Assembly: GCF_000765215.1 (NCBI RefSeq)
Contig: NZ_JPJE01000037.1
Location: 1 to 42,468, forward strand
Source of the DNA: Eubacterium sp. ER2
GTDB lineage: Bacteria; Bacillota; Clostridia; Lachnospirales; Lachnospiraceae
DNA length: 42,468 nucleotides
Reading direction: 5' to 3'
The first letter of the stretch is position 1, and the number at the start of each line of letters is the position of its first letter. Below are positions 14,001 through 27,264 of the stretch, piece by piece. A program made the translations under genes and the position numbers. The notes under the pieces were generated by a model. The model did no database searches and had not been told where the DNA came from. It was given only the letters and a program-made list of their open reading frames with translations.

Positions 14001-14186
14001 CGTCACACCGAGCCGGTCCGTCTCCACTCTTTCGCTGTCTCGCCCCAGCGTCCAGCTGATCTCACTGCCGCCTCCCGGATCTGTCTCCGGGCTGTCCTCC
14101 TCCGCCCGGGACTGCAGCGCAGAGCTGCCCAGAAGGGCTGCAAACAAAAACAAAGCACAACAAAGAATACATACAAATCTTTTCAA
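11067..14186 (-). CDS. SpaA/Cna-B repeat surface protein with thioester-type domain
   Basis: A 1039-residue cell-surface protein. The signal peptide is about residues 1-28. Residues about 60-215 resemble a thioester (TED) domain: the YCVQP cysteine motif is present, but the second motif reads AYAHAALSYAY, with His where the TQxA class has the reactive Gln. Seven Cna-B/SpaA-type repeats follow, each starting with a Lys strand (for example LQKV, LLKKYD, LIKVYQ, VLKVDA, SIDKYE, LLKYEK, VSKLDG) and ending with a Glu-bearing strand (such as YYVKEKTPPRGY, YLVTETKTPEGY, YYLREVKAPKGY), so internal isopeptide bonds are expected. The C-terminus has APRTGD, a membrane segment and RIRKRK, a sortase signal of variant form. 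The start is TTG with GGAGGT eight bases upstream. No sortase gene lies in the window. Likely an adhesin or pilin-like stalk. Confidence 0.85.
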   Translation of the reverse strand: MKRFVCILCCALFLFAALLGSSALQSRAEEDSPETDPGGGSEISWTLGRDSERVETDRLGVTEGGIMPRSAVGSLCTISYGASHSYGSWFTREFYVAAETGNYTGYCVQPMSPPPSGTYQVSRLDNDVMKALLMMAPGYPYYEAYGKIIYNEADNNTYAYAHAALSYAYEGSLTGLSASMQAGVTNMVHYATAAVQGSWAPEIHENLDRYQVYIAYNDQQDIVWLEEQPKGNVQLQKVSAQIDITERNSCYSLEGAVYGVYTDAGCTAQAGELVTDASGKSGLLSVNAGTYYVKEKTPPRGYALDGTVYRVDVQAGQTAQVSAKDIPQKNPVEVLLKKYDGELDFQEEGNAPQGAASLAGAEFTFRFYTGDYDSLEKLEGVSPARTWVFRSNDRGFVSTQEEYFLEGDPVWRDGNGGFFLPLGTVTIQETKAPQGYNLNSETQLVRVTPEGTGEQVQTYQTPAFEEDVIRGDLELIKVYQNEEEKEDVLEGIEGVEFTLTSRTTGQEVLRIVTDREGKATTRSEDYPRGRLVYDTYLVTETKTPEGYNPVKPFEVEISEENVTVSGIYRQDTLITSPIQVLKVDASTGKTIPVAGTEFQLLDADRNVVTMTSHYPEYQVYETFVTDEEGRFTFPEKLKYGTYYLREVKAPKGYLLNGEELAFTVEEDKDWGSPLTVRFADENAMGRISIDKYEEGKEEYLAGTEFEIQAAEDIVTPDGTVRLKKGELAGTLTTGNETAVSEELFLGKYTVRETKQVPGFALPEKAFQVELKYKDQTTPVVEEHLTVYNEPTSLVLLKYEKGSEEKTALAGVRFKVWLKQDEAVEEEAVMGEDTVMQADTVDPGYTLEEVYETDEEGRIEIPYLLPDSTYCIQEVEALPGYIPDGTIREICVDSRGQIEDKAVCVVEFENDYTKLRVSKLDGGNRQYLPGAGLKLERVLESGERELVESWTSGKEEKKFDRLEPGEYVLTEEQAPEGYEKAEPVSFTLKETGEEQKVEMLDQLLVKAPRTGDISYIPWLGAALAGSLALMLWALRIRKRK

Positions 14187-15541: not shown

Positions 15542-16444
15542 ATGGATACGAAATTTGCAATCGTCAGCGACGGCTCCTGCGACCTGCCCGCAGAGGAAGC
15601 CGCAAAAAACCACATTCACATCGTCCATTTTCTCGTCTCTTTCGATGGACAGGCCTACAAAAGGGAGGGCGTAGAGATCGAACTGAAGGATTTCTATCAG
15701 AAAATGGTGGACGAGCCCGGACATTTCCCCAAAACCGCGGCCCCTTCTCCTGAAGACTTCTATCAGGCCTTTGCAGACTGCGCCAGGATGGGTCGGCCCA
15801 TCCTGTGTATCTGCATTTCCACCAAACTGAGCTCCTCCATGCAGTCTGCCCAGATTGCAAAGCGGATGCTGGAAAATGAATACCCGGACATCCCGGTCAT
15901 CGTCCAGGACTCTCTTTGCGCCACCCTGATGCAGAGCGCCTACGTGCTGGAGGCCTGTCGTCTGCGGGACGCAGGGTACACGCTGGAAGAGGCCGCCGAC
16001 CTTCTGTCAGGCCTGCGCAGTACCGCCCGCATCCTTTTCACGGTAGGCAGTCTGGACTACATACAGCACGGCGGACGCATCGGCAGGATGACCGGCATAG
16101 CGGGAACTCTCTTACAGATCAAGCCCCTGATCACACTGCAGGACGGGGAAATCCACTCCTCCGGCATCCGCCGGGGCAGGCGCAGATCCATAGAAGGCGT
16201 GGTGGATCTCCTTGTCTCCTACCTGAAAGACAACAGCCTGGCCCCCTCAGACTGTCGCATCCTGGCCGGCTACGGATATGACCGGGAGGAGGCAGAGCGC
16301 TTTCGGGATCTGACAAAATCCCGGCTTCTTTCGGAATTTGGCCAGACACCCGACCTGCCTCTCTGCCAGATCGGCGCCACAATCGGCGTCCACGCAGGTC
16401 CCTACTCCGTCGGCTTCGGCGTGATCCAGAAAAGCAGGCTCTAA
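15542..16444 (+). CDS. DegV family fatty-acid-binding protein
   Basis: A 300-residue DegV protein. The family binds a fatty acid in a two-domain fold and can act as a FakB subunit of fatty acid kinase. The N-terminal motif IVSDGSCDLP, the loop segment CISTKLSSSMQSA (lipid head-group site), VQDSLCATLMQS and YIQHGGRIGRM, followed by LLQIKPLITLQDGEI, are all typical. The length is standard. AAAGGGGG lies six bases before the ATG. The last four bases overlap the 3' end of the convergent alkyltransferase-like gene. Substrate chain type is not readable from the sequence. Confidence 0.92.
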   Translation: MDTKFAIVSDGSCDLPAEEAAKNHIHIVHFLVSFDGQAYKREGVEIELKDFYQKMVDEPGHFPKTAAPSPEDFYQAFADCARMGRPILCICISTKLSSSMQSAQIAKRMLENEYPDIPVIVQDSLCATLMQSAYVLEACRLRDAGYTLEEAADLLSGLRSTARILFTVGSLDYIQHGGRIGRMTGIAGTLLQIKPLITLQDGEIHSSGIRRGRRRSIEGVVDLLVSYLKDNSLAPSDCRILAGYGYDREEAERFRDLTKSRLLSEFGQTPDLPLCQIGATIGVHAGPYSVGFGVIQKSRL

Positions 16445-16806
16445 ATACCCATTTTCCGGAACAGGGTGCGGAATTCTTCCGCATCCTTCAGGGTATGCCT
16501 CCATCCAAACCGCTTCATGTCCACCTGCCATCCATCCCTGGTTCCAAAAACCTCCACCCCTTCTCCCTCCAGAAGGTTTTTCTGCATGTCAAATGTCTCA
16601 AAGGCCGCTGCTCCGCTGAGCAGCCCTCTTCCATTGACCACCCTGTGGGCCGGTACATCCTCCCCCAGCTTTCCCCTGTTCAGAGCGTACCCCACCTGTC
16701 GGGCGTTCTTCGGCTTTCCGCTAAGAAGAGCAATCTGCCCGTAGGAGGCCACCTTCCCCCTGGGAATACACCTGCACACAATGCCGGCTCTCTGATAAAA
16801 ATCCAC
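16441..16806 (-). CDS. alkyltransferase-like (ATL) DNA-lesion-binding protein
   Basis: A 121-residue protein of the MGMT C-terminal fold. The helix-turn-helix and arginine-finger region is YGQIALLSGKPKNARQVGYAL. The active-site motif, PCHR in true O6-alkylguanine methyltransferases, reads PAHR (52-55), so the methyl-accepting Cys is Ala. This is the mark of ATL proteins, which bind O6-alkylguanine, flip it out and flag it for nucleotide excision repair instead of repairing it. The following VVNGRG is conserved. It starts four bases after the yaaA stop codon and is the last gene of a long repair-type operon. Lesion-binding function is inferred from the family. Confidence 0.88.
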   Translation of the reverse strand: MDFYQRAGIVCRCIPRGKVASYGQIALLSGKPKNARQVGYALNRGKLGEDVPAHRVVNGRGLLSGAAAFETFDMQKNLLEGEGVEVFGTRDGWQVDMKRFGWRHTLKDAEEFRTLFRKMGI

Positions 16807-16810
16807 TTTT

Positions 16811-17554
16811 TTACTCCTTTATGAATACATATTCCGCCGGTCCGGAAAGCTCTTCCCTGAACCGGTATCCCAGGCGGTCAAATCCACGGGCATCCTCGGG
16901 CTCCCGCCCCCCTGTCTGCGCCAGATAGCGCACCATCTCTCCCCGGGCCATCTTGGCCAGAGTCCCCTTCTGGCGCACCTTTCCATCAACCAGCTCCCCG
17001 AACACACAGGTCACAAACCGATCCCCCGGCCCCAGATACTTTTCTACACATTTAGAATACTCTTTGGAGGCCAGATTGAGGATAGTCCCATCCCCTGCCG
17101 TCACCGCCCGGCAGATTGCATCTCCCCAGAACTCATAGAGGTTCCTTGTCCCGGCCACCGCCGCCTTTGCCTGCATTTCCAGGCGGTAGGGCGTGACTCC
17201 GTCCAGAGGCCGCAGGACACCGTAAAATCCCGAGAGTATGTACAGGTGCTCCTGGATATACTGAATTTCCTTTCCCTCGAATACGGACGGAGCCATATAC
17301 TGGTACTGGATCCCCTCGTAGGAGAGGATGGCCGGCGTCAAGTTCTTCTCCAGCTCCATAGTCTGAAAGCGCTGATAATTTTCCCGGGCAATGGCGTCAT
17401 TGCATTTCCACAGCTCCTTTGCCTCCTGGCAGGTCAGCTTTTTCATCCACTGCGCCAGCTCCCGGGTCCTGCCCAAAAAGGCTGGCAGCCCGCTGCAGGG
17501 ATACAGATCCGGCTCACTTTTCATTTTCTTTGCGGGTGAGATAATCATTTTCAC
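16811..17554 (-). CDS. yaaA: YaaA family (UPF0246) peroxide-stress protein
   Basis: A 247-residue protein starting MKMIISPAKKMKS, the conserved N-terminus of YaaA. In Escherichia coli YaaA lowers intracellular iron during peroxide stress and protects DNA, and the fold includes a DNA-binding helix-hairpin-helix. Other conserved pieces here are AILSYEGIQYQYM, YILSGFYGVLRPLDGV, YRLEMQAK and NLASKEYSK. The GTG at 17554 overlaps the stop codon of the HAD gene (GTGA) and has AAGGAGG seven bases upstream, so coupling is expected. A downstream ATG is the alternative start. Neighbouring repair genes support a role in damage tolerance. Confidence 0.88.
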   Translation of the reverse strand: MKMIISPAKKMKSEPDLYPCSGLPAFLGRTRELAQWMKKLTCQEAKELWKCNDAIARENYQRFQTMELEKNLTPAILSYEGIQYQYMAPSVFEGKEIQYIQEHLYILSGFYGVLRPLDGVTPYRLEMQAKAAVAGTRNLYEFWGDAICRAVTAGDGTILNLASKEYSKCVEKYLGPGDRFVTCVFGELVDGKVRQKGTLAKMARGEMVRYLAQTGGREPEDARGFDRLGYRFREELSGPAEYVFIKE

Positions 17555-18402
17555 AGCTGTTCCTCCTTCTGCATGGCCAAAAGCCATTCAATGAACCTGG
17601 CCACTCCGTCCTCATCATTGGAGCCTGCGATGTAGTCCGCCGCCTGCAGGCAGCCCTGAGATCCGTTGGAGACCGCAATGCCAATCCCCGCAAACGCCAG
17701 CATCCCCCTGTCGTTGTCCCCGTCTCCAAAGGCTGCCGACTCCGTCTGCTCCAGCCCCAGATACCGCAGCAGAAACTTAAGAGCAGACTCCTTGCCCGCA
17801 TCCCTGTAGGAGATCTCCAGAAGCTGGGGGACTGAGGAAGTCACATAGATATCCGTCACCTCCCGCTCCAGGAGGCACCACAGACTGCGCTTTTTCTCCT
17901 CCCCCTTCACCACCACGTCCAGACAGTCCAGCTTCCCTTCTGCCGCATGCGCCCGGATAAAGGCCTCCATACCCGCCACCGGCTCCCGGGTTCTCTGGAT
18001 ATAGCCGATGGCTGCGGGCATGGCTCCATACCGCACCGGGTCTTCCACATACTCCTTCTGGGCATAGGGCTTTCCATCTATAAAAGCCTCAAAGACTACA
18101 TCCCTGCCGTCCATGAGCCAAAGGATCTTCTCCACAGACTCCTCTGTCAGCGAGAATTTCCGCAGGTACTCTCCCGTATGAACCTCCACCACAGCTGTCC
18201 CGTTGGAGGTGATAGCATATCGTATCCCGGAGATGCTCAGAATCTCCTCCGGCAGGGAATCAAAGGAGCGTCCGCTGGCCGGGATGACACAGATTCCTCT
18301 CTCCAGCGCCTCCGCAATGGCCCGCCTTGTTCTCTCGCTCAGTATGCCCCGGCTGTTCAGCGTAGTCCCATCCAGATCCAGGGCAATGCTTGTGATCTTC
18401 AT
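17551..18402 (-). CDS. Cof-type HAD-IIB phosphatase
   Basis: A 283-residue HAD hydrolase of subclass IIB. Motif I is ALDLDGTTLNS (nucleophile Asp9), motif II lies in CVIPASGRSFDSL, and motif IV is FGDGDNDRGML. The cap domain between them is the IIB type. Family members remove phosphate from sugar phosphates, phospho-coenzymes and similar small molecules; the substrate here is unknown. AAAGGAG lies eight bases before the ATG at 18402. The gene sits inside the repair-type operon, 38 bases after the AlkZ-related gene, and overlaps yaaA by four bases. A role linked to repair is not evident. Confidence 0.88.
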   Translation of the reverse strand: MKITSIALDLDGTTLNSRGILSERTRRAIAEALERGICVIPASGRSFDSLPEEILSISGIRYAITSNGTAVVEVHTGEYLRKFSLTEESVEKILWLMDGRDVVFEAFIDGKPYAQKEYVEDPVRYGAMPAAIGYIQRTREPVAGMEAFIRAHAAEGKLDCLDVVVKGEEKKRSLWCLLEREVTDIYVTSSVPQLLEISYRDAGKESALKFLLRYLGLEQTESAAFGDGDNDRGMLAFAGIGIAVSNGSQGCLQAADYIAGSNDEDGVARFIEWLLAMQKEEQL

Positions 18403-18440
18403 AGTCTGCTCTCCTTTGTTCTGTCTGTATATTGCACTTG

Positions 18441-19163
18441 TCATCCGCACACCTTCCGCAACTGCTTTTCATCTGTCTCAGGGTACAGCTCTCTCACATG
18501 ATCCAGTATCCTCTGGAAGGATTTCTCCGGCGCTTCCCTGTAGGCGGATGACACCAGCTCATACCCCCACAACGCCTCTGGAGCGGCATAGACGGAGGCC
18601 GCCATCCCGTAGGCCTGTCCCTTGCGGTTCCTCTTCTGGCGGAAGTCCTTTGTCACCAGGTAGGTCTGCATCTGCAGCTCCGTCACAATGCCGCTGAAAT
18701 TCTTCTCCCCGCCTTTGCCAAAGCCTGCCTCCTTCTTCAGCTCGTGGGAGGCATACTCCTCCCTCGCCTCAAAGAGATCCATGATCTTCTTGCTCCGGTA
18801 TCCGGCCAGGCCGTCCTCCCACCTGGCGTCGAAGTCGTAGCCGTCCCGCCTGTAGTTGGCAAACCAGGGAAACCACTCCAGGGAAATAAAACCGGCCTTT
18901 TTGTTGAAAAATTTCCCGTACGCCACTCTCCCGCTTCTGGCAACGATGGCACGCCACTCCCAGGGATCCTGCTCCGGATCCCCGGTCCACCAAAAGAGGG
19001 GCGAGGTCTTCTCCTCCACGGAAAACCCCTTCACCTCATTTTGAAACAGGGGAAGAAAGCCAACCCTGTCCACGTAGTCTATCAGCTCCCTCCAGGAACG
19101 GATCCGCTCCGGGCTGTCCCAGGCCGTGCCGTGTAGGATCCACTCTCCATTTTCAACTGCCAT
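18441..19163 (-). CDS. AlkZ-related protein (tentative)
   Basis: A 240-residue protein that I recall as being annotated as AlkZ-related, i.e. distantly linked to the HTH_42/AlkZ/YcaQ DNA glycosylases that excise bulky alkylated bases and unhook interstrand crosslinks. Visible traits are a Trp-rich core (WWTGDPEQDPWEWRAIVARSG), FFNKKAGFISLEWFPWFANY, GYDFDARWEDG and GFGKGGEKN. ELQMQTYL contains Gln-Met-Gln, which resembles the QxQ catalytic motif of AlkZ, but its position in the chain differs. The ATG at 19163 has GAGGAG nine bases upstream. It lies between a UvrD-type helicase and a HAD gene in the same direction. The glycosylase function is unproven. Confidence 0.6.
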   Translation of the reverse strand: MAVENGEWILHGTAWDSPERIRSWRELIDYVDRVGFLPLFQNEVKGFSVEEKTSPLFWWTGDPEQDPWEWRAIVARSGRVAYGKFFNKKAGFISLEWFPWFANYRRDGYDFDARWEDGLAGYRSKKIMDLFEAREEYASHELKKEAGFGKGGEKNFSGIVTELQMQTYLVTKDFRQKRNRKGQAYGMAASVYAAPEALWGYELVSSAYREAPEKSFQRILDHVRELYPETDEKQLRKVCG

Positions 19164-19204
19164 GGTCATCATCTCCTCTATATCACAGCTGTATCAACAG
19201 CCTT

Positions 19205-21337
19205 TCACCCTATCTCTTCCACTTCCCCCAAAGCCTTCAGGAACTTCTTGCGCCCGTAGCCCTCAAACTCCACCTCGACCATCATCTCATCCTCCCCCAC
19301 AATGGTTCCTTCTCCATACTTCCGATGTCGGGCTCTGCGGACCTCTTCCTCCGCCGGATGTGCATCTCCCACACAGGACTCCATCGGTCTGGAGCCAGGG
19401 TTAAGGTCTGTCTTCCGCTCTGCGCGGCTTTTCCGCATCTGCGCCGCCACCTCTCTTCGGAGCTCCTGCAGATCAGCTTTCTTTTCCTTCTGACTCCGAG
19501 CCTCGCTCCAGTCCAGTAGATGCTCCGGGATCATCCGCAAATAGGAGCTGTATCCCTCCAGCACTCCTGGCTCTCCGGGATTTGTGTAGTAGGACAGCTC
19601 CAGATGGTTCCTGGCTCTTGTAATGCCCACAAAGAAGAGCCGCCTCTCCTCTTCCTCCTGCTCATAGCTCTGACACCGCAGAGGGATCAGCCCCGGGTTC
19701 ACGCCAATCAGAAACACTGTATCAAACTCCAGCCCTTTGGAGGCGTGGAGCGTCATCAGCCGGACGCCATCGTCCTCCTGCTCGCTCCCCTTCAGGAACT
19801 CCAGTCCATAGAGCATGGAGCTGTCCAGGAAACGGCGCAGGTTTTCCAGAAAGGAGCCGTCCTGCTCCCGGCAGAACCGGCACAGATGCTCCAGCAGCTT
19901 CTCGGCTTCCTTGGCATCCTTTTCATAGTCAGCCGAGGTAGGGTGCAGTCGGGTACAAAGGTCAAAGTAATCGAACAGCCACTGGGCTGAAATTCCATCC
20001 TTATCTTTATCCTTTTCCACCGCTGCCTCCTGGAACCCGGTCATTCTGTCAAGGAGAGGCAGGGCGCCTCCCTCTCCCTTTTCCAGGATGGAGGCTGCTC
20101 TCTTCGGAGTGGCTTTCTCTCCATATTTCCGGTTCGTCAGCACCTGCAATCCCGTCTGGCGGTCAGCGGGATTGACAGAGAATTTAAGGATCTTCACCAG
20201 GTAGTCCAGTACTGGCACATCCCCCAGTGTCTTTTTCAGTGAGAGACTGCAGAGGATACCTGCCTTCTGAAAAACCTTCTCCAGAACCTCCGACTGTCGC
20301 TGCAGCCGGTAAAAGACAGCTATCTCTCTGTAGGCCAGCCCGTCCCTGTGGAGACTCTCTATCCGGTCAGCCAGATATTCCGCCTCCTGGAATGGATCGT
20401 AGTGGTTGCGGACCGTGATCTTTTCACCCCCGCCCCGGCTTCCCTCAATCTTCCCTCCGAACTGGAGAAAACGGTTCGCCGCCTCCAGGATCGAGGCGTT
20501 GGACCGGTAATTCACAGGGAGGGAGAGCTCCTTTGCCTGGAATCTGTGCTTGAGAAGAAAAAACATATTTTCCGTTGTCCCCCGCCAGCTGTAGATCACC
20601 TGGTTGGGGTCGCCCACGGCAAAAAGCCGGGACCGGCGCTCTCCGGCAATGTCTGTCCCCAGCGCCTCCAGAAAATCCATCTGGAGGGAGTCGCTGTCCT
20701 GCACCTCGTCCACAATGATCCACTCCGGGCACCTGTTCTCTTTATTCAGAAGGGCTGTGCTCACCCGGATCAGGTCGGAAAAGGTCATCTTGTTCTGTCT
20801 TTTCTTTTCCTCCTCCAGCAGAGGGAACAGCAGAAAAAGCTCGTCCTTATACCTGGGATTTCTCCCCTTCAGCCAGGAAGCGTACTCCTGCTCCAGACGC
20901 TTTTTCAGTCTGTTTTTATACTTGATCTTCAAGCCCCGCTCCGCCGCGATGGCCAGGGCAAGCTCCGCCTCCTCATCCGGATCCATCACCGAGAACTCCC
21001 TGGTCCACCCCGCCTCCTCTGTGGGAAGGCAGTTTTTCAGCAGATACAGCGCCACACTGTGAAACGTCCCAAAGCAGGCTGTCTCTTCTTTTGTGACAGA
21101 GGGCTCCCGCTGGGCAAGCCGCTGCAGGATCTCATCTGCGGCTTTGTTGGTAAAGGTCAGCACCACCATGTCCTTAAGGGGCACCTGCTTCTCAAAGTGC
21201 AGGTGGAGGATCTTCTCAATGAGCACCGTAGTCTTCCCGCTCCCCACATTGGCGTTGACCATACAGGCGGGACTCTCATCCAACACCGCCTCCATCTGAT
21301 AGGTATTCAGCCGATATGTGTTATGAAAGTCTGTCAT
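19205..21337 (-). CDS. UvrD/Rep/PcrA-type ATP-dependent DNA helicase
   Basis: A 710-residue superfamily 1A helicase with motifs in order: Q motif LNTYQMEAV, Walker A NVGSGKTT, FTNKAADEI, GTFHSVAL, IIVDEVQDSDS (Walker B), GDPNQVIYSWRG, NYRSN, LMTLHASKGLEFD and VGITRARNHLE. It is close in size to PcrA and UvrD, and its last 60 residues (RHRKYGEGTIVG to KKFLKALG) resemble the PcrA C-terminal tudor-like domain. It unwinds DNA 3' to 5' in excision repair or displaces proteins from DNA. Its start overlaps the MrfA-like gene by 17 bases, so the two helicases are co-expressed. It is shorter and clearly different from the EndoQ-UvrD protein. Confidence 0.9.
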   Translation of the reverse strand: MTDFHNTYRLNTYQMEAVLDESPACMVNANVGSGKTTVLIEKILHLHFEKQVPLKDMVVLTFTNKAADEILQRLAQREPSVTKEETACFGTFHSVALYLLKNCLPTEEAGWTREFSVMDPDEEAELALAIAAERGLKIKYKNRLKKRLEQEYASWLKGRNPRYKDELFLLFPLLEEEKKRQNKMTFSDLIRVSTALLNKENRCPEWIIVDEVQDSDSLQMDFLEALGTDIAGERRSRLFAVGDPNQVIYSWRGTTENMFFLLKHRFQAKELSLPVNYRSNASILEAANRFLQFGGKIEGSRGGGEKITVRNHYDPFQEAEYLADRIESLHRDGLAYREIAVFYRLQRQSEVLEKVFQKAGILCSLSLKKTLGDVPVLDYLVKILKFSVNPADRQTGLQVLTNRKYGEKATPKRAASILEKGEGGALPLLDRMTGFQEAAVEKDKDKDGISAQWLFDYFDLCTRLHPTSADYEKDAKEAEKLLEHLCRFCREQDGSFLENLRRFLDSSMLYGLEFLKGSEQEDDGVRLMTLHASKGLEFDTVFLIGVNPGLIPLRCQSYEQEEEERRLFFVGITRARNHLELSYYTNPGEPGVLEGYSSYLRMIPEHLLDWSEARSQKEKKADLQELRREVAAQMRKSRAERKTDLNPGSRPMESCVGDAHPAEEEVRRARHRKYGEGTIVGEDEMMVEVEFEGYGRKKFLKALGEVEEIG

Positions 21338-24005
21338 CGTATCTGCGCCTCAGCTTTCCCTTTGTCTTTTCCACCCGCTCTGCGTCCTCCTCCACCCGGA
21401 AGCGCACCTGCATGTCCGCCGGACAGACCGCATAGTATCGCAGGGTATTCTCCAGGCCCCGCCGGTTGTCCGGATCCTCCAGCCAGGTCTCGTAAAAGCG
21501 GCTTCCAAGAGTCAGAGTCAGGCAGTGCCCCTCCACCTCCACTTTCCGGATCATTCCCAGGAAGGCACCTCCGCTCTCCCCGCTTCTCACTACCCGGTCA
21601 CAGAAAGCAGGCCACTGATCCGCCAGCCTGAAAAAGGAAAATTCCTTCTCTATAGCAGGCACCTCCGCCTCCATCTGTTTGCCGTGAAAGGCCGGGGGCT
21701 CTGTCTGTTCTCTCAGGTTTTCCAGGCCCCACAGGACCATCTTTTTATTCAGGCTATAATCCCCCACACAGGCGGGGCAGCCGTCCTCGCAGGCACATCC
21801 TCCTACCATCCGGATAGCCGCGTCCACGATCTGGGGGATCAGGTCATAGATCTTCTCGGAATAGCCCAGCCCGCCCTCATATTTGTCGTAAATAAAGAGA
21901 GAGACCTCCTCTTCCCTGCTGCCGTTTGGGATAATTGCGTTGTTGGAGACGATAACATCTATATCGTCCCGCTCTGTCATGGTCACCATCATAGCTGCAT
22001 TTTTAATAGCGTAAGCCAGTCCTTCGAAGTGGTTATTCAGCGCCAGCTCTCCCGTCCTGGTGGGGGCCAGAAGGCTCCGGTAGGTCTGAACCACATTTTC
22101 CGGAATCCTGATCCAGGTGCTCTCCGTGTCATAGTCCTTCTGCAGGGGAACGGTCAGAGAGACATAGCCCAGGTTCTGATGGTTGTGGAACTGGAGCTTT
22201 TTGTACATGGAGATTACCTCGTTCACATTGATGTCCCCGAAGCAGATATGGCTCCGCTCAAACTCCTCCTGCTGGAACACCTGAAGGATTCTGGTCTCCT
22301 GGGTTCCCGAAGGCACAGTGTAGTAGTTGCCCTCAAAGGGCACTGCCTCCGCGGTCCGGCGTACAAGATCCAGCTTCAGCACCTCGTAGAGCTCCCCATC
22401 GTGCATGTAGACCGCCCCCGGGTGAAGCTCATGGTAGGCCTGGGACTCATCCATCTCTGTGATCTCCCGCATGTCCCCATCTTCCCCTGACCGGAGGAGC
22501 AGCTTGTACCTTGTCTTGTCCATGTTTCTCAGACTGTAATCTCCTGCCGGGAAGGCAGGGCCTGACCAGGCAAATCTCCCCGCCAGTGTCCTCACTTCCT
22601 CTGCTCCAAGGAGCACCGGGATCACCTCCCCCAGATCCGGAAAAAGAGCCGCGTCGTCCAGCGACAGGGGGAGCTCCGCCGCTGCCGCCCGTATGTGGGA
22701 GAGCTGGATCAGCAGGTTGTCCGGATCCACAATGGCATTTTCGCTGCCGCCGGCAAAGAGCCAGTCCGGGTCGATGGCAATATACTGATCAAAGGGCTGA
22801 TTTTCCAGGATCAGATAGTTGACGCACTTCTCCCCGTTTCTCCCGGCCCGCCCGGTCTGCTGCCAGAAGGAGGCTCTCGTCCCCGGGTAGCCCACGATCA
22901 CCGTGGAGTCCAGCTTCCCGATGTCGATCCCCAGCTCCAGAGCGTTGGTGGACACGAGGCCCAACAGCTCACCGGCAGCCATCTTCCCCTCGATCTTTCG
23001 CCTCTCCTGTGGGGTGTAGCCCCCTCTGTATCCGGCGATCCGGGAGCTGTCCGCCCTGGACAGAAATCCAGCTCCGTCCAGCCTGTCCCTGGCCTCCTTT
23101 AAAATGACCTCCACATTTCTCCGGCTCTTTCCAAAGGCGATAAAATGGTGCCCCTCCTCCGCAAGCCGCGGGATCAGCTCCGCCGCCACGGAAGAGGCGG
23201 AGCGCCTGCCGTACACCTTGTCATTGCTGCCCTTGATCCGGGGCGGCTGCAAGATCCGGTACTCCTTCTCCGGAGCCGGAGAACCGTCCCTGTCGATCAG
23301 CGCAAAGGGCACTCCGCATATCTTTTCCGCCAGCTCCACCGGATTGGCGATCGTGGCCGAGCTGCAGAGAAACTGAGGCCCGGACCGGTAATACCCGCAG
23401 ACTCTCTTCATCCTCCGGAAAATATTGGCAAGGTGGGCCCCAAAGGCGCCCCGGTAGCTGTGGAGCTCGTCGATCACCACGTATTTCAGATTTGCAAAGA
23501 TAAAGTCAAATCCATATTTACTGTGATTGGGAAGAAAGGCCGCGTTCAGCATCTCCGGGTTTGTAAGGATAATGTTGGCATTCTTCCGGATCCTGCTCCT
23601 CTCAGCAGGCAGAGTATCCCCATCGTACACCCCCGCCGAGATACGGCCCTCCCCGAAATATTCCAGCACCGGCTGCAGCGCCCGGTACTGGTCGCTGGCC
23701 AGAGCCTTTGTGGGGTAGACAAAAACAGCTCTCGTCAGAGGGTCTGTAAGGGCAGCCTGCAGCACAGGCAGCAGAAAGCTCAGCGTCTTGCCGCTGGCCG
23801 TGGATGTGGTGATGACCACGTTTTTCCCTGCGGCTGCCTTCTCGAACATCTCCGCCTGGTGGGTGTAGAGCCTGGAAATCCCCTGCCCTTCCAGATAGGC
23901 CCTTATTTCCGGCAGGAGAGCGCTGGGAAAGTCCGCATACTCTCCTGTCCGCGCCGGAACGGTCTTTGTGTAGATTGTCAGGTCTTCGCTCGTCTGCTCT
24001 CGCAC
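21321..24005 (-). CDS. mrfA: DEAD/DEAH helicase with DUF1998, MrfA/YprA type
   Basis: An 894-residue superfamily 2 helicase. RecA-like motifs: TSTASGKTLSF (Walker A), VYPTKALA, VVIDELHSYRG (DExH), CSSATIAN, FGKSRRNVE, STNALELGIDIG and QQTGRAGRNG. The C-terminal DUF1998 region contains four clustered cysteines in GGCACEDGCPACVGDY, the metal site known in Bacillus subtilis MrfA (YprA), which acts with the MrfB nuclease in repair of mitomycin crosslinks. No MrfB partner is visible here. The GTG at 24005 has AAGGA ten bases upstream; longer open frames overlap a promoter. The pairing with UvrD, AlkZ-related and ATL genes fits a crosslink or alkylation repair role. The symbol is a family name. Confidence 0.87.
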   Translation of the reverse strand: MREQTSEDLTIYTKTVPARTGEYADFPSALLPEIRAYLEGQGISRLYTHQAEMFEKAAAGKNVVITTSTASGKTLSFLLPVLQAALTDPLTRAVFVYPTKALASDQYRALQPVLEYFGEGRISAGVYDGDTLPAERSRIRKNANIILTNPEMLNAAFLPNHSKYGFDFIFANLKYVVIDELHSYRGAFGAHLANIFRRMKRVCGYYRSGPQFLCSSATIANPVELAEKICGVPFALIDRDGSPAPEKEYRILQPPRIKGSNDKVYGRRSASSVAAELIPRLAEEGHHFIAFGKSRRNVEVILKEARDRLDGAGFLSRADSSRIAGYRGGYTPQERRKIEGKMAAGELLGLVSTNALELGIDIGKLDSTVIVGYPGTRASFWQQTGRAGRNGEKCVNYLILENQPFDQYIAIDPDWLFAGGSENAIVDPDNLLIQLSHIRAAAAELPLSLDDAALFPDLGEVIPVLLGAEEVRTLAGRFAWSGPAFPAGDYSLRNMDKTRYKLLLRSGEDGDMREITEMDESQAYHELHPGAVYMHDGELYEVLKLDLVRRTAEAVPFEGNYYTVPSGTQETRILQVFQQEEFERSHICFGDINVNEVISMYKKLQFHNHQNLGYVSLTVPLQKDYDTESTWIRIPENVVQTYRSLLAPTRTGELALNNHFEGLAYAIKNAAMMVTMTERDDIDVIVSNNAIIPNGSREEEVSLFIYDKYEGGLGYSEKIYDLIPQIVDAAIRMVGGCACEDGCPACVGDYSLNKKMVLWGLENLREQTEPPAFHGKQMEAEVPAIEKEFSFFRLADQWPAFCDRVVRSGESGGAFLGMIRKVEVEGHCLTLTLGSRFYETWLEDPDNRRGLENTLRYYAVCPADMQVRFRVEEDAERVEKTKGKLRRRYDDRLS

Positions 24006-24045
24006 TGTAGCCACTTCCTTTTTTCGAACATGTGTTTGTCTATGT

Positions 24046-24074
24046 ATCATAACATATTGTGGTGCCGGATACAA
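24046..24074 (-). promoter_or_regulatory. internal promoter before the MrfA-like gene
   Basis: On the minus strand TTGTAT is followed after 17 bases by TATGAT, a good sigma-A promoter in the 72-base gap after the RQC-GNAT gene; the -35 box lies against that gene's stop codon. It would allow the MrfA-to-ATL genes to be expressed independently. It also places the MrfA start below 24040, supporting the GTG at 24005. Confidence 0.55.
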
Positions 24075-24077
24075 TCC

Positions 24078-25124
24078 TCAATGCAGCCTTTTTTCCATAA
24101 TCTCGTATACAAGCACCGCCCCGTCGAAAACAGACATGCTCTGATGGGAGACCGTCTTATACCCGAGCTTCTCGTAAAAGCAGCAGGCCGGGAGAGAGGC
24201 ATCCAGCACTGCCCTGTCATGGTGCTTGCGGATTTCCTTTTCCAGTTCCCCCATGATCCAGGCGCCATATCCCTTTCCCTGGAACTCAGGCAGCACATAC
24301 ACTCTTGTAACGTGCTCCTCCTCCAGGCTCCCGGTTCCGATGATGCGCCCGTCCAATCGCAGCACCCACACCTTCCCCTCCAGTATATCCTGCGAAATCC
24401 TGTCCTTGCTGTGAAACATAGCGAAAAAATCTGCCACTGCCTGCGGATAATATTTGGGGTAAACTGTCCGCACTGTCTTCTGCACCAGTTCCGAAATTTC
24501 CCTGGCGCTGGTCTTCCCCGCCTTCACAAACGAAACGGTCGGCTCATATGCAGGGCTGCCCAGCGATTTCTGAACACTCTCTATCCTCTCCCGAACCTTG
24601 CGCACTTCAACCTTCTTCCAAGCTTCCAGCAGAGGGATAAACTCTCTTTTCCCGCTGTTTCGGATCATTTCCAGCACATCAAACACCACCTGCCGGTTAA
24701 TATCCTTCATCCTGGTGATGACAGACTGTTCCCCCTCGCTCAGGGCACGGCAAAATTCTGCGTAAATCTCTTCCGCAAACGTCTTCTCCTCAATCCCCCA
24801 TCCTTTTTCGGAAAAAACAAGCATGGGAAGCCTTCCGCTGTACTCAATCCGCAGATAGTCCTCCTCCAGAGTCCAGTCCACTCTTCTGGATATTTCTTCC
24901 ATCGTCAGGCTGCGGTAATATCCGTATACAGGACACTCATCCAGGTGATGCTCCAGGATTTTCTTATCTTTGGAGCCCTTCAATATTTTCACCAGCATGC
25001 TTCGTCCTCCCACACCGATCAGCTCATCCGCCGCCCGCAGAATGGCCCGTATCTCCTCGTCCCTCAATTTTACAACATCTCCCGAGTCCAGGGATACCCC
25101 GACTCTCTGCCGTCTTCTTCCCAT
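24078..25124 (-). CDS. RQC-minor-1-like DNA-binding domain fused to GNAT acetyltransferase
   Basis: A 348-residue two-part protein. Residues 1-115 (MGRRRQRVGVSLDSG, AILRAADELIGVGGRSMLVKILKGS, VYGYYRSL, GRLPMLVFSEKGWGIE) match the stand-alone RecQ C-terminal (RQC) winged-helix family called RQC-minor-1, a DNA-binding module seen in Clostridia. The middle is a helical linker. Residues about 205-348 form a GNAT acetyltransferase: VYVLPEFQGKGYGAWIM is the acetyl-CoA-binding Q/RxxGxG/A motif, followed by ASLPACCFYEKLGYK. AGGAGGT precedes the ATG by five to six bases. It starts nine bases after the SWIM gene. The likely role is recruitment of an acetyltransferase to DNA or to a helicase complex; the acetyl acceptor is unknown. 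Confidence 0.78.
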   Translation of the reverse strand: MGRRRQRVGVSLDSGDVVKLRDEEIRAILRAADELIGVGGRSMLVKILKGSKDKKILEHHLDECPVYGYYRSLTMEEISRRVDWTLEEDYLRIEYSGRLPMLVFSEKGWGIEEKTFAEEIYAEFCRALSEGEQSVITRMKDINRQVVFDVLEMIRNSGKREFIPLLEAWKKVEVRKVRERIESVQKSLGSPAYEPTVSFVKAGKTSAREISELVQKTVRTVYPKYYPQAVADFFAMFHSKDRISQDILEGKVWVLRLDGRIIGTGSLEEEHVTRVYVLPEFQGKGYGAWIMGELEKEIRKHHDRAVLDASLPACCFYEKLGYKTVSHQSMSVFDGAVLVYEIMEKRLH

Positions 25125-25133
25125 AAAGACCTC

Positions 25134-26834
25134 CTAAAATCCAGCCCGTCCAAGCTCGTCCATCATGGCGGATCTTCGCCGGTACTTTTGTTTCCATTCG
25201 TCTGCAATCTTCCGGGCCATCTTCTCTCCGTCAGGATATCTCTTTATCTTCTTTAAATATACCACAAGCTCCTTATACATTTTCCTGTAGGATGTCCTTT
25301 CCGCCTGACTCTGCACATAGCGGATATACATATCCCTTACTCTCTCCGGGAAATGCTCCTTCAGCACTTTTTCATACTGGTCAAGCCGACTGATCCATCC
25401 TTCCCTCTCTATTTCCGCCAGAAGCCGCCCGTATAGTTTCTCATGCTCCAGCAGCATAAACTTCACAGGCTCTCTTCCCGACTGCTCCAGATATTTCTCC
25501 CGGTATCCGTTCCATTCCTGTTCAGTACATATTTTTTTTAGTCTCATAAGACGTTCCAGGTCGCTCTGTCCACAGTGAAATATATTCCAGAGGAGCTCCT
25601 TCCTGTAAGAAACCTGATCTCCCGTCCTTTCATAGATGTCGATCAGCTTCTGACTGTAATCTGACACCAGGCCGCACTTGTCCTTATCCAGCTCTTTGCT
25701 CTCTCTCAGCACCTCCGCAGCCTTATCATAGTCTCTATCCTGCTGGTACTCTCTGACTTCCTGCATGCGTATCCCGGAGAATTGTCGGTACTGGTCTCTG
25801 TACGTCCGTATGTCCTGCCTGGAATATCCCAGACGCTCCATAATGCTGATCCGGCGCAGGACTGCCTCCTCACACTGATATCCGGCATACCAGTCCTTGT
25901 CCACGCTCTGCTCCAGCTCCCTGATCTGTCCATCCAGATCCCGCAGCTGTTCGTGGAGCAACTCCTCATTGCCAAACTCACTTATCATGAACTCTTCCAT
26001 GACATCCTGCAGGTAGTCCAGGACATACCATTTCCGATGCTCCTGAAACCACCGGATCATTTCTTCCTCTTCCCTCTCATCTGACGCATCCAATATCCGG
26101 CGCCACATCTCATAGCACGCGCCTGCCACCTCCATCGTCCCACCATCAGAATCGTCCATATCCCTGGTCCCAATTTCGTGGAAGACATGGTTGGTCAGTT
26201 CAAATGCCTCCTTCAGACAATTTCTCCCGATCAGCTCAGGCACGTGCTCGTATAGGACATCCTGTAATTCACATGCATAATCATAGGCTTCCTCATAGTC
26301 CACAAAGCCGCTCTGGTCAGAGTGTCGCCATCCGATCTCATCCACCTCTTTTTCCAGACGCACAAGCATCATCGGATCCCTGGGTCCGTATTTTGTCAGG
26401 AGAGTATTGCAAAAAGATGTATCCTGACGCGCCAGGGATATGACAATACCCCGAAGCTCCTCCTCAGGAATAGACGCTACGATTTCCTGTATCTGATCCT
26501 CTTTTTTATTTTTGCTTTTCTTTACTTTATCAGCCTGGGCACTCTTGCCGCGGTTTCCGGAGGCGAAGACTTCTACATCTTCCTCCTCCACCGCGTAGAG
26601 CACTGCCGCCATATGCTTGCAGTAATTGCCGTCGTCCGCATAGGGGCAGTCACAGTACATTTCTGCAATCTCATCCCCATCCAACTCAATCTCCACCTCA
26701 TAGTCCTCTGTTCCCGACACAGTGGCCCTATAGCCTGTAGGCGTTGTGGTGAAAGACTGTACCGCACCGTCCTTATAATAGTTCCAGCCCCGCTCCAGGA
26801 TGCGGGGAAGAAAATATTCCTGCCAGTTTTTCAT
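25134..26834 (-). CDS. SWIM zinc-finger family protein
   Basis: A 566-residue soluble protein. Residues 1-80 form the SWIM domain: after a SWI-type beta region (GWNYYKDGAVQSFTT, GTEDYEVEIELDGDEI) comes CDCPYADDGNYCKHM, giving the CxCxnCxH zinc motif (C61, C63, C72, H74). The rest is helical, rich in Glu, Arg and Tyr. SWIM proteins bind DNA or proteins and bacterial ones often travel with SNF2 or other helicases, as here. It overlaps the AT-rich upstream gene by four bases (ATGA). Its exact role is unknown; the linkage to RQC-GNAT and MrfA genes suggests a part in DNA repair. Confidence 0.82.
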   Translation of the reverse strand: MKNWQEYFLPRILERGWNYYKDGAVQSFTTTPTGYRATVSGTEDYEVEIELDGDEIAEMYCDCPYADDGNYCKHMAAVLYAVEEEDVEVFASGNRGKSAQADKVKKSKNKKEDQIQEIVASIPEEELRGIVISLARQDTSFCNTLLTKYGPRDPMMLVRLEKEVDEIGWRHSDQSGFVDYEEAYDYACELQDVLYEHVPELIGRNCLKEAFELTNHVFHEIGTRDMDDSDGGTMEVAGACYEMWRRILDASDEREEEEMIRWFQEHRKWYVLDYLQDVMEEFMISEFGNEELLHEQLRDLDGQIRELEQSVDKDWYAGYQCEEAVLRRISIMERLGYSRQDIRTYRDQYRQFSGIRMQEVREYQQDRDYDKAAEVLRESKELDKDKCGLVSDYSQKLIDIYERTGDQVSYRKELLWNIFHCGQSDLERLMRLKKICTEQEWNGYREKYLEQSGREPVKFMLLEHEKLYGRLLAEIEREGWISRLDQYEKVLKEHFPERVRDMYIRYVQSQAERTSYRKMYKELVVYLKKIKRYPDGEKMARKIADEWKQKYRRRSAMMDELGRAGF

Positions 26835-27157
26835 TGGTGTTCTCCATTTAATATTTGCCCTTCATCTTTAACATATATATCAACTTTTTTTAGCGCTGTT
26901 GCCAGTACTGTCAGTAAATTCTCTATAGCTTCATAATAGAATTCCAAATCCGAAATTTTCATATCATACAAATGGCCTTCCCCATTTTCATTCCCCCATA
27001 TCACATCTCTACTTTTCAGATAATCGATTTGTACACTCTTATCCGATGCAAATTCCAAAAAATTTTTAAATTGATAAAATCCGAAAAATTGTGTTGACCA
27101 CAAATTTGTAAAATCATATGTTACCTTGCTTTTTTCATTTTGTGCCTTTTCAAACAT
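26831..27157 (-). CDS. AT-rich small protein at the head of the repair-type operon
   Basis: A 108-residue soluble protein, begins MFEKAQNEKSKVTYDFTN. It is rich in aromatic residues (YDFTNLWSTQFFGFYQFKNF). The DNA is markedly richer in A and T than the GC-rich genes beside it, suggesting recent acquisition. I do not recognise the family. AAGGAGAG lies before the ATG, and the stop overlaps the SWIM start (ATGA), so it is co-translated with the operon. The promoter and operator-like inverted repeat lie directly upstream. It could be a regulator or partner of the operon, but nothing in the sequence proves this. Confidence 0.6.
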   Translation of the reverse strand: MFEKAQNEKSKVTYDFTNLWSTQFFGFYQFKNFLEFASDKSVQIDYLKSRDVIWGNENGEGHLYDMKISDLEFYYEAIENLLTVLATALKKVDIYVKDEGQILNGEHQ

Positions 27158-27210: not shown

Positions 27211-27264
27211 GCAAACAAAATTAGTATGATCATTGTACCATTATTAAATTTAATTAACAAGAAA

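Follow-up and report, generated by a model that had tools for sequence, protein, structure and literature searches.

A conserved pair of long-form MrfA and UvrD-like helicases within a nine-gene stretch, a candidate two-motor DNA-repair module

Do nine closely spaced genes form a single operon for alkylation or crosslink repair, as the first-pass annotation of this locus had proposed, or is the conserved unit smaller? In the window, the whole stretch of 42,468 nucleotides analysed here, all nine open reading frames lie on the minus strand from 27157 to 16441, and with the preferred start codons neighbouring genes are separated by −17 to +63 nt, which confirms the close one-strand arrangement described before. 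The domains assigned to the nine genes were likewise borne out by Pfam and NCBIfam profile searches:

26831..27157, minus strand: small protein of 108 aa, first gene of a probable upstream unit, identical in genome G159
25134..26834, minus strand: SWIM zinc-finger protein of 566 aa (PF04434), in the same probable upstream unit
24078..25124, minus strand: RQC-GNAT fusion of 348 aa with NCBIfam RQC-minor-1 (242 bits) and GNAT
21324..24014, minus strand: mrfA, long form, 897 aa, with DEAD, Helicase_C and MZB domains; stop codon at 21321-21323
19205..21337, minus strand: UvrD-like SF1 helicase of 710 aa with UvrD_N, UvrD_C and a weak tudor match
18441..19172, minus strand: AlkZ-related protein of 243 aa (PF24741 "AlkZ related", 298 bits)
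17551..18402, minus strand: Cof-type HAD phosphatase, 283 aa with the ATG start
16811..17554, minus strand: YaaA, 247 aa with the GTG start (PF03883)
16441..16806, minus strand: ATL of 121 aa, PF01035 MGMT DNA-binding domain without the catalytic cysteine

For MrfA, GTG 24014 (897 aa) is the probable start in preference to TTG 24074 of the longest frame, with GTG 24005 as a possible alternative. The uvrD gene overlaps the mrfA stop by 17 nt, and the in-frame GTG of yaaA at 17554, which overlaps the HAD gene by 4 nt, matches the 247-aa frame in G153. At the thresholds used, neither Pfam nor NCBIfam gave a family match for the 108-aa protein. The window contains no tRNA and no Rfam match at the gathering threshold.

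The proposal of one coordinated nine-gene system did not survive the comparison of neighbourhoods between species, in which neither of the two nearest relatives was found to carry all nine genes at this place. The RQC-GNAT gene is absent here from both and a 71-aa gene stands there instead, SWIM is degraded to remnants in Claveliimonas monacensis, and in the other relative (G159/L120) the AlkZ-related gene is reduced to a remnant. The collinearity of all nine genes with short gaps would fit a single alkylation and crosslink repair operon, as would the conservation of MrfA, UvrD, AlkZ-related protein, HAD phosphatase, YaaA and ATL, intact and in the same order, in Claveliimonas monacensis, and readthrough from the upstream unit is possible. 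However, with one gene missing and two broken in near relatives, the AlkZ-related gene unlinked in 29 other loci and a LexA-type promoter internal to the stretch, we consider such an operon highly improbable.

SWIM, RQC-GNAT and the AlkZ-related gene look like passengers. The RQC-GNAT protein combines RQC-minor-1 with GNAT but has no helicase core, and is thus not a RecQ-type RQC-helicase fusion. It was matched in 32 of 150 genomes of the family: the full-length fusion occurs only in this genome and G057, the matches in G033 and G046 are best in the RQC half, and the other 28 cover the GNAT half only. Due to its absence here in the near relatives and to the unrelated neighbourhoods in which the matching loci of G057, G033 and G046 stand, we rejected it as a core part and regard it as a probable insertion. 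SWIM is found upstream of mrfA in three intact and one broken Mediterraneibacter loci, its linkage to mrfA extending over Claveliimonas relatives and some Mediterraneibacter; it is unlinked in G028, and G152 encodes SWIM without mrfA, so that it was rejected as core as well. AlkZ glycosylases carry a catalytic Q-x-Q/D motif. The AlkZ-related protein matches PF24741 only, its residues Q167 and Q169 fall below the 93% conservation level in an alignment of 29 members, and its structure model, calculated from a two-sequence alignment, has a pLDDT of 34. Of 299 genomes in the family, 66 carry the gene, and in 29 sampled loci its surroundings, out to about 1.5 kb, showed none of the other eight genes. 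A role as crosslink glycosylase in this cluster was rejected because the gene is unlinked elsewhere; it is probably a passenger.

The conserved core of the stretch is mrfA-uvrD, encoding two DNA-unwinding enzymes, and the UvrD-like helicase, to which the first-pass annotation had given no role, is the near-invariant partner of mrfA. Among the best 80 of 145 long-form mrfA loci, UvrD follows mrfA in 79 (76 by open frame and three by tblastn on truncated contigs); at the 80th the contig ends 6 nt past the match, so that UvrD is untestable there. Measured from the longest frames, the gap between both genes is −133 to +95 nt in 74 of 76 loci, the outliers being L085 with 505 nt and L108 with 2233 nt and intervening genes. 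Of 397 genomes in the family, 17 carry long-form MrfA and the identical 17 carry its UvrD, with adjacency checked in 17 of 17, and UvrD scores 543-1407 bits in these genomes compared with at best 270 bits in any other. The adjacency could in principle reflect shared ancestry without joint function, with the nearby repair genes present by chance, as the linkage is indirect and much of the sample consists of Lachnospiraceae and Clostridium. Against this, both genes are present or absent together across the 397 genomes, and the pair is spread across Bacillota, with single further records labelled Synergistota (a MAG) and Calditrichota, though the genes around it vary between loci. Common descent as the sole explanation is therefore very improbable. 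No report of this mrfA-uvrD pair appeared among the papers listed by searches of open-licence literature.

The long form differs from Bacillus-type MrfA in its partner. Residues 21-752 match the structure 6znp of B. subtilis YprA/MrfA with 521 bits, and DEAD, Helicase_C and MZB all score above cut-off, so that the protein has the SF2 core and the MZB/DUF1998 zinc-binding domain of the MrfA/YprA family. DELH is invariant in six aligned MrfA proteins and the Walker A string is present in 68 of 77. In a tree of 47 rows, the 27 long forms (the window and 26 of the 80 loci) make up one side of a 100/100 branch; the 20 short forms come from loci taken from 119 other matching genomes. Within about 5 kb of these short-form genes, this UvrD was found in 0 of 20 loci and an MrfB-like gene in 13 of 20, and one of the MrfB-like proteins matches the MrfB structure with 483 bits. 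Full-length MrfB was found in none of the 30 long-form records searched, with six of six short-form controls positive; where MrfAB has an adjacent MrfB exonuclease, UvrD sits in its place. In the long-form pair, UvrD thus appears to replace the DNA-digesting partner known from Bacillus subtilis, and the best reading is a two-helicase variant of MrfAB repair, with a biochemistry that we infer.

The partner itself shows both UvrD domains, N and C (Pfam), along with helicase motifs and is a helicase of the UvrD/PcrA type. Walker B is present in 66 of 66 homologues, which had been chosen by Walker A, and motifs V and VI went undetected by their patterns in 3 and 21 of the 66, respectively. It is not equivalent to housekeeping PcrA: its best piece scores 156 bits and the whole protein 244 bits versus a cut-off of 911 for TIGR01073, and a separate housekeeping PcrA gene in the same genome reaches 946 bits. 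Judged by these scores, the UvrD partner of long-form mrfA constitutes a subfamily of its own.

Three putative regulatory sites bear on how the pair is expressed:

27232..27260, minus strand: promoter-like site of the upstream unit, TTGTTA-17-TACAAT with TG, before the first gene
24046..24074, minus strand: candidate promoter of the mrfA unit, TTGTAT (24074-24069), 17 nt, extended −10 TGTTATGAT (24054-24046)
24025..24038, minus strand: putative LexA-like (SOS) box CAAACACATGTTCG, identical in two related genomes

The latter two lie in the 63 nt before mrfA. The mrfA promoter was read from the sequence and is kept in three genomes; it is absent from a stricter consensus scan and therefore stands as a candidate. 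The promoter scan gave 9 sites versus 5.9 expected in shuffles, so that the upstream-unit site is weak when taken alone. In the same genome, recA, lexA and a rarA-like gene also have the LexA-like pattern of mrfA in their upstream regions; as the pattern was derived from the mrfA site, only the other four sites are independent. Across loci, 7 of 76 mrfA genes have the exact LexA core in their 250 bp upstream, compared with 4 of 736 other genes (p = 1.2e-5), and in a comparison with random stretches it occurs in 7 of 78 at mrfA versus 0.3% of 1488. A box at the promoter that is common to recA and lexA of the genome would place mrfA in the LexA regulon. In the main text of the Clostridium difficile LexA paper (PMC4234289), the terms helicase, UvrD and PcrA do not occur. 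As a separate promoter and LexA-like box precede mrfA, the window probably contains two transcription units, the second of which (mrfA) is probably SOS-induced, and mrfA-uvrD in this genome is probably under its own LexA-controlled promoter. With this internal promoter and the separate promoter-like site at the first gene, the DNA does not suggest one operon. The broader idea of a function in DNA damage gains support from the box in common with recA, lexA and the rarA-like gene and from the ATL/MGMT genes that recur beside mrfA-uvrD.

An SOS-type promoter is less expected for an anti-phage defence module, which the pair might form by analogy with ARMADA type II, where ArmC and ArmD combine a YprA and a UvrD relative, according to the parts of PMC12458937 used here. 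The patchy distribution of mrfA-uvrD would be in line with defence, as would the match of UvrD to PADLOC GajB models (up to 212 bits) and the partial match of SWIM to the PADLOC candidate PDC-S62 (76 bits). MrfA, however, fits the repair-type YprA (6znp, 521 bits) far better than the PADLOC helicases (best 134 bits). The neighbour clusters present in at least three loci are, judged by eye, mostly housekeeping-like, and neither a methyltransferase nor a BrxHII helicase or nuclease partner was recognised among them. With the patterns applied, viral contigs yielded no confirmed relative. A defence function is thus improbable.

Long-form MrfA also carries an additional region:

21324..21761, minus strand: MrfA C-terminal extension of 146 aa, comprising the end of the zinc-domain region, a low-confidence linker and a predicted DnaA domain I-like KH-type fold

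The long tail is present in 73 of 77 measured long-form loci and missing in four. DnaA domain I and the KH-type domain of DciA are its best matches in both sequence and structure, although the match is moderate; the tail resembles these domains in its predicted helix-strand order, the fold sought being helix-helix-strand-strand-helix-helix-strand. DnaX was not among the listed matches of the tail (VIA-align), which is uninformative either way. The tail and the UvrD 2B region are lost together in L115, L118 and L124; joint loss as a sign of contact was dropped, as L090 and L113 contradict it, their UvrD being shortened while the tail keeps its normal length. DnaA domain I and DciA contact the replicative helicase, and UvrD/Rep/PcrA relatives act at replication forks. 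The pair might therefore be a replication-fork or recombination helicase module, in which the tail brings MrfA to stalled forks and MrfA together with UvrD clears protein roadblocks, remodels forks or removes RecA, tasks that would account for its SOS induction. Both the resemblance of the tail and the SOS-type box in common with recA and the rarA-like gene are consistent with such a role. We nevertheless think it rather unlikely, since the nearest characterised MrfA relative acts on mitomycin lesions, as described in the portion of PMC11194089 considered, ATL/MGMT genes recur in the cluster and four loci lack the tail.

The ATL protein reads PAHR at the position where MGMT carries PCHR, and is thus an MGMT-domain protein with the catalytic cysteine replaced, as is characteristic of ATL. 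Nine of the best 80 of 145 loci have ATL/MGMT-family genes inside the cluster, in four arrangements and with no further match there. An ATL orthologue lies directly 3' of uvrD in a Blautia group, where HAD adjoins ATL, and YaaA is immediately upstream of mrfA in L069. Because ATL/MGMT-family genes occur in these 9 of 80 clusters, alkylation is a plausible optional input to the mrfA-uvrD module.

Based on the near-invariant adjacency, the co-occurrence across 397 genomes, the separate MrfA clade, the lack of full-length MrfB in the 30 long-form records searched, the LexA-like box and the presence of the key motor motifs in most members, we propose with moderate confidence that long-form MrfA and a dedicated UvrD-like SF1 helicase make up a two-motor DNA-repair module, the functional core of the stretch. 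After SOS induction, MrfA would load at bulky or alkyl adducts and translocate, thereby opening the duplex around them, and UvrD would displace the damaged strand, which in Bacillus would be degraded by MrfB. As an adaptor, the DnaA domain I-like tail could dock the pair on the replicative helicase or replisome, or on UvrD itself. ATL/MGMT-family proteins might be optional lesion flags that joined the cluster more than once, and SWIM, RQC-GNAT, the AlkZ-related protein and HAD might be accessory or passenger genes in this species. More tentatively, we speculate that long-form MrfA-UvrD represents a distinct, SOS-induced bacterial excision-repair route with a nuclease-free core, in which a lesion-scanning SF2 motor passes the damaged strand to the dedicated SF1 helicase, with a DnaA domain I-like tether to the replication machinery and cysteine-less alkyltransferases as interchangeable lesion sensors.

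With these findings, a large clade of YprA helicases, earlier described without conserved context, gains a fixed UvrD partner, a replication-type adaptor domain and, in part of the loci, a regulator. The pair may be a route by which Clostridia that carry it cope with bulky and alkyl DNA damage, and it raises the question of strand removal without MrfB. Among known systems, MrfAB (YprAB) of Bacillus subtilis is described in the consulted part of PMC11194089 as an SF2 helicase with a DEDDh exonuclease, acting in mitomycin C repair independently of UvrABC. The long-form pair resembles it in the homologous MrfA core (21-752), the two-gene operon and the damage response, and differs in the UvrD-like helicase in place of MrfB, the C-terminal MrfA extension, the separate clade and, at some of the loci, the LexA-like promoter. 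A survey of the YprA family distinguishes a repair branch ("YprA only", MrfAB) with no conserved context or with MrfB; the long form shares its repair-type YprA helicase, and the consulted parts of the survey mention no UvrD partner for this branch (PMC12458937). ARMADA type II (YprA-like ArmC and GajB/UvrD-like ArmD) likewise has helicases of the YprA and UvrD families in the same operon, but also has a BrxHII-like helicase, a PglX-like methyltransferase and a RelE fusion, none of which is among the nine genes here. Like UvrD/PcrA of nucleotide excision repair, the partner belongs to the SF1 helicases, has Walker B and gives a weak match to tudor, although its 156 bits versus the PcrA cut-off of 911 point to a subfamily of its own. 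ATL proteins hand O6-alkylguanine to nucleotide excision repair, as stated in the part of PMC7835731 referred to; the ATL described here has the same MGMT DNA-binding domain without the cysteine, and differs in being encoded with MrfA-UvrD. Finally, the MrfA tail moderately resembles DnaA domain I and the KH-type domain of DciA, but is fused to a helicase.

The first-pass annotation had proposed a nine-gene repair operon, and reading frames and domain searches of the window confirmed the positions of all nine genes, their minus-strand orientation and their assigned domains. The window features are:

16441-27157, minus strand: the nine-gene run, in order small protein, SWIM protein, RQC-GNAT, MrfA, UvrD, AlkZ-related protein (PF24741), HAD, YaaA and ATL
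25134-26834, minus strand: SWIM protein, matching over its N-terminal part PDC-S62, a candidate defence protein in PADLOC (76 bits)
about 1907-3646, minus strand: another large helicase of the UvrD family (1095-aa open frame), outside the cluster
11067-14186, minus strand: surface protein of 1039 aa; by eye, its translation shows repeated pilin/Cna-B-like domains and ends in a sortase-type C-terminus

The junctions of the run range from -17 to +63 nt if the YaaA start is taken as GTG 17554. The most probable MrfA start is GTG 24014. An extended -10 promoter and, after it, CAAACACATGTTCG lie within the 63 nt that separate this start from the RQC-GNAT gene. We infer this mrfA promoter from sequence and conservation, because a stricter consensus promoter scan of the window did not list it. 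The first gene of the run has a separate promoter-like site of its own in the promoter scan.

As a neighbourhood, the proposed set of nine did not hold up, since neither of two related genomes has all nine genes here. In the closest one, Lachnoclostridium An118 (96% identity to the window for MrfA, 97% for SWIM), the order is small gene, SWIM, 71-aa gene, MrfA, UvrD, AlkZ-related remnant, HAD, YaaA and ATL. Claveliimonas monacensis keeps MrfA through ATL as six intact genes and has a fragmented SWIM; here, too, a 71-aa gene occupies the RQC-GNAT position. The remaining 8 of 11 searched genomes of the genus gave no match to MrfA (E 1e-60) or to the AlkZ-related protein (1e-10). The latter is frequent in the family (66/299 genomes); no other window gene was found within about 1.5 kb of it in 29 other sampled loci, and in G110, G176, G189, G263 and G275 it lies on a separate contig from MrfA or more than 1 Mb away. 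Among 150 family genomes, just one other has the full RQC-GNAT fusion, and its neighbourhood there is unrelated. Upstream of mrfA, 14 loci (L062:544-774, for instance; L056 and the An118 locus L120 too) encode a protein of 71-76 aa that shares a conserved CSICTGEQVAGF-like stretch and for which no Pfam family scored above cut-off; its carriers are Mediterraneibacter and Claveliimonas relatives, and the window has RQC-GNAT in its place. At locus L043, a SWIM relative stands after a helicase gene.

The mrfA-uvrD pair very probably represents one functional unit. Contigs of 84,980 species, one genome each, were scanned with a MrfA alignment, and among the best 80 of 145 relatives a window-type UvrD follows mrfA in 79 loci; in the 80th, the contig stops 6 nt past the match. 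Exceptional spacers occur at L085 (505 nt) and L108 (2233 nt, with genes inside), and at L075 uvrD is divided over two frames. These best 80 include Clostridium, Acetobacterium and Aquibacillus as well as single records of Synergistota (MAG) and Calditrichota. In the window's family, long-form MrfA (E up to 1e-80), which in most loci carries a C-terminal tail with a putative DnaA domain I-like fold, and the window-type UvrD (at least 543 bits) are found in the identical 17 of 397 genomes. The top UvrD score in any other of these genomes is 270 bits, within the PcrA-type range, and the housekeeping PcrA of the window genome is a gene separate from the paired UvrD. Walker B is present in all 66 UvrD frames, which were picked by Walker A, while 3 and 21 of them escaped the motif V and motif VI patterns; of 77 MrfA, 68 contain the Walker A string, and DELH is invariant across six aligned MrfA proteins.

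Most of the 2B-subdomain region is gone from the paired UvrD of L090, L115, L124 and L127 (by length, also L113 and L118). The motor halves are 53-94 residues apart in the 2B-short loci and 173-299 in all others that could be measured. Rep-type helicases become activated when 2B is lost, and thus some of these UvrD partners may, by analogy, be constitutively active.

The Bacillus-type partner of MrfA is the exonuclease MrfB. A MrfA search of 398 phylum-wide genomes gave matches in 120. All but the window's own scored at most 653 bits and ended at residue 779 or earlier, many near 747; none of those outside the window extends into the tail region, although some are cut at contig ends. Matches stopping before this region were defined as short forms. 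Among 20 fetched short-form loci, 13 contain a MrfB-like gene (one gave 483 bits against the MrfB crystal structure) and none a window-type UvrD. Full-length MrfB was found in 6/6 short-form controls; weak, unlinked exonuclease-domain matches of at most 88 bits were obtained in 15 of 30 long-form genome handles, two of which (G189 and G808) apparently represent one genome. In a tree of 47 MrfA proteins (the window, 26 of the best 80 loci and 20 short forms; L135 is long-branched and five rows are of odd make-up), a 100/100 branch sets the 27 long forms apart from all others, and the 13 MrfB-paired and the other 7 short forms also split off, each with 100/99.

SOS control in the window genome appears quite probable. 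The 3.27 Mb genome contains 5 separate matches to a LexA-type box pattern derived from the mrfA site, against 1 for the reversed control pattern. Four lie upstream of mrfA, recA, lexA and a rarA-like gene (L051:1501-1514); the recA and lexA products score above their NCBIfam cut-offs, the rarA-like protein below its own. The box suggests that the rarA-like gene is a member of this genome's SOS regulon. The fifth (L055:1501-1514) has HTH and ImmA-like protease genes nearby, recognized by eye, perhaps a mobile element. Within 250 bp upstream, the exact GAAC-N4-GTTC core was found for 7/76 mrfA genes versus 4/736 other genes (p 1.2e-5) and, with one mismatch allowed, for 16/76 versus 51/736 (p 1.8e-4), both uncorrected for kinship. 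No such box is present in this range in 60/76 loci; hence SOS control likely holds for the window lineage and several others, not for all.

The proposed link to alkylation repair survives in part: MGMT/ATL proteins recur near MrfA-UvrD, but as optional rather than fixed members. MGMT/ATL superfamily proteins lie inside the cluster in 9 of the best 80 of 145 loci, where no further MGMT/ATL match was found at E 1e-4, and in none of the 20 short-form loci, whose flanks are shorter. Four kinds of placement occur:

Placement of MGMT/ATL proteins near mrfA-uvrD
ATL at the end of the run, like the window: two Claveliimonas relatives
MGMT/ATL directly after uvrD: five loci, Blautia group
YjbR-MGMT-domain fusion between mrfA and uvrD, cysteine kept (PCYR): L108:4759-5379, Roseburia inulinivorans
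True Ogt just upstream of mrfA (4-nt overlap): Blautia luti, L114; mrfA itself (L114:9986-12686) in several broken frames, uvrD still there

One further lineage (L069) has YaaA immediately in front of mrfA. Thus, alkylation functions are attracted to MrfA-UvrD, but are optional.

By analogy, we lean towards adduct repair as the task of the pair. As a tentative and rather doubtful scheme, MrfA would open DNA around bulky adducts, UvrD would take off the strand which MrfB would otherwise digest, the MrfA tail would dock the pair onto UvrD or the replication machinery, and ATL would flag alkyl lesions. Linkage, co-occurrence, MrfB absence in the searched genomes, promoter element and domain make-up were computed, and the steps are drawn from MrfAB and UvrD biology.

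In a YprA survey of nearly 52,000 proteins (PMC12458937), the repair branch stands without conserved context or with MrfB, and no report of the mrfA-uvrD pair was found in the open-licence literature searched. Due to the absence of full-length MrfB from all 30 long-form handles searched, the window system is not classed as MrfAB. We class it as a new variant of the MrfA type, distinct from MrfAB: while MrfB is the partner in MrfAB, the partner in the window pair is UvrD.
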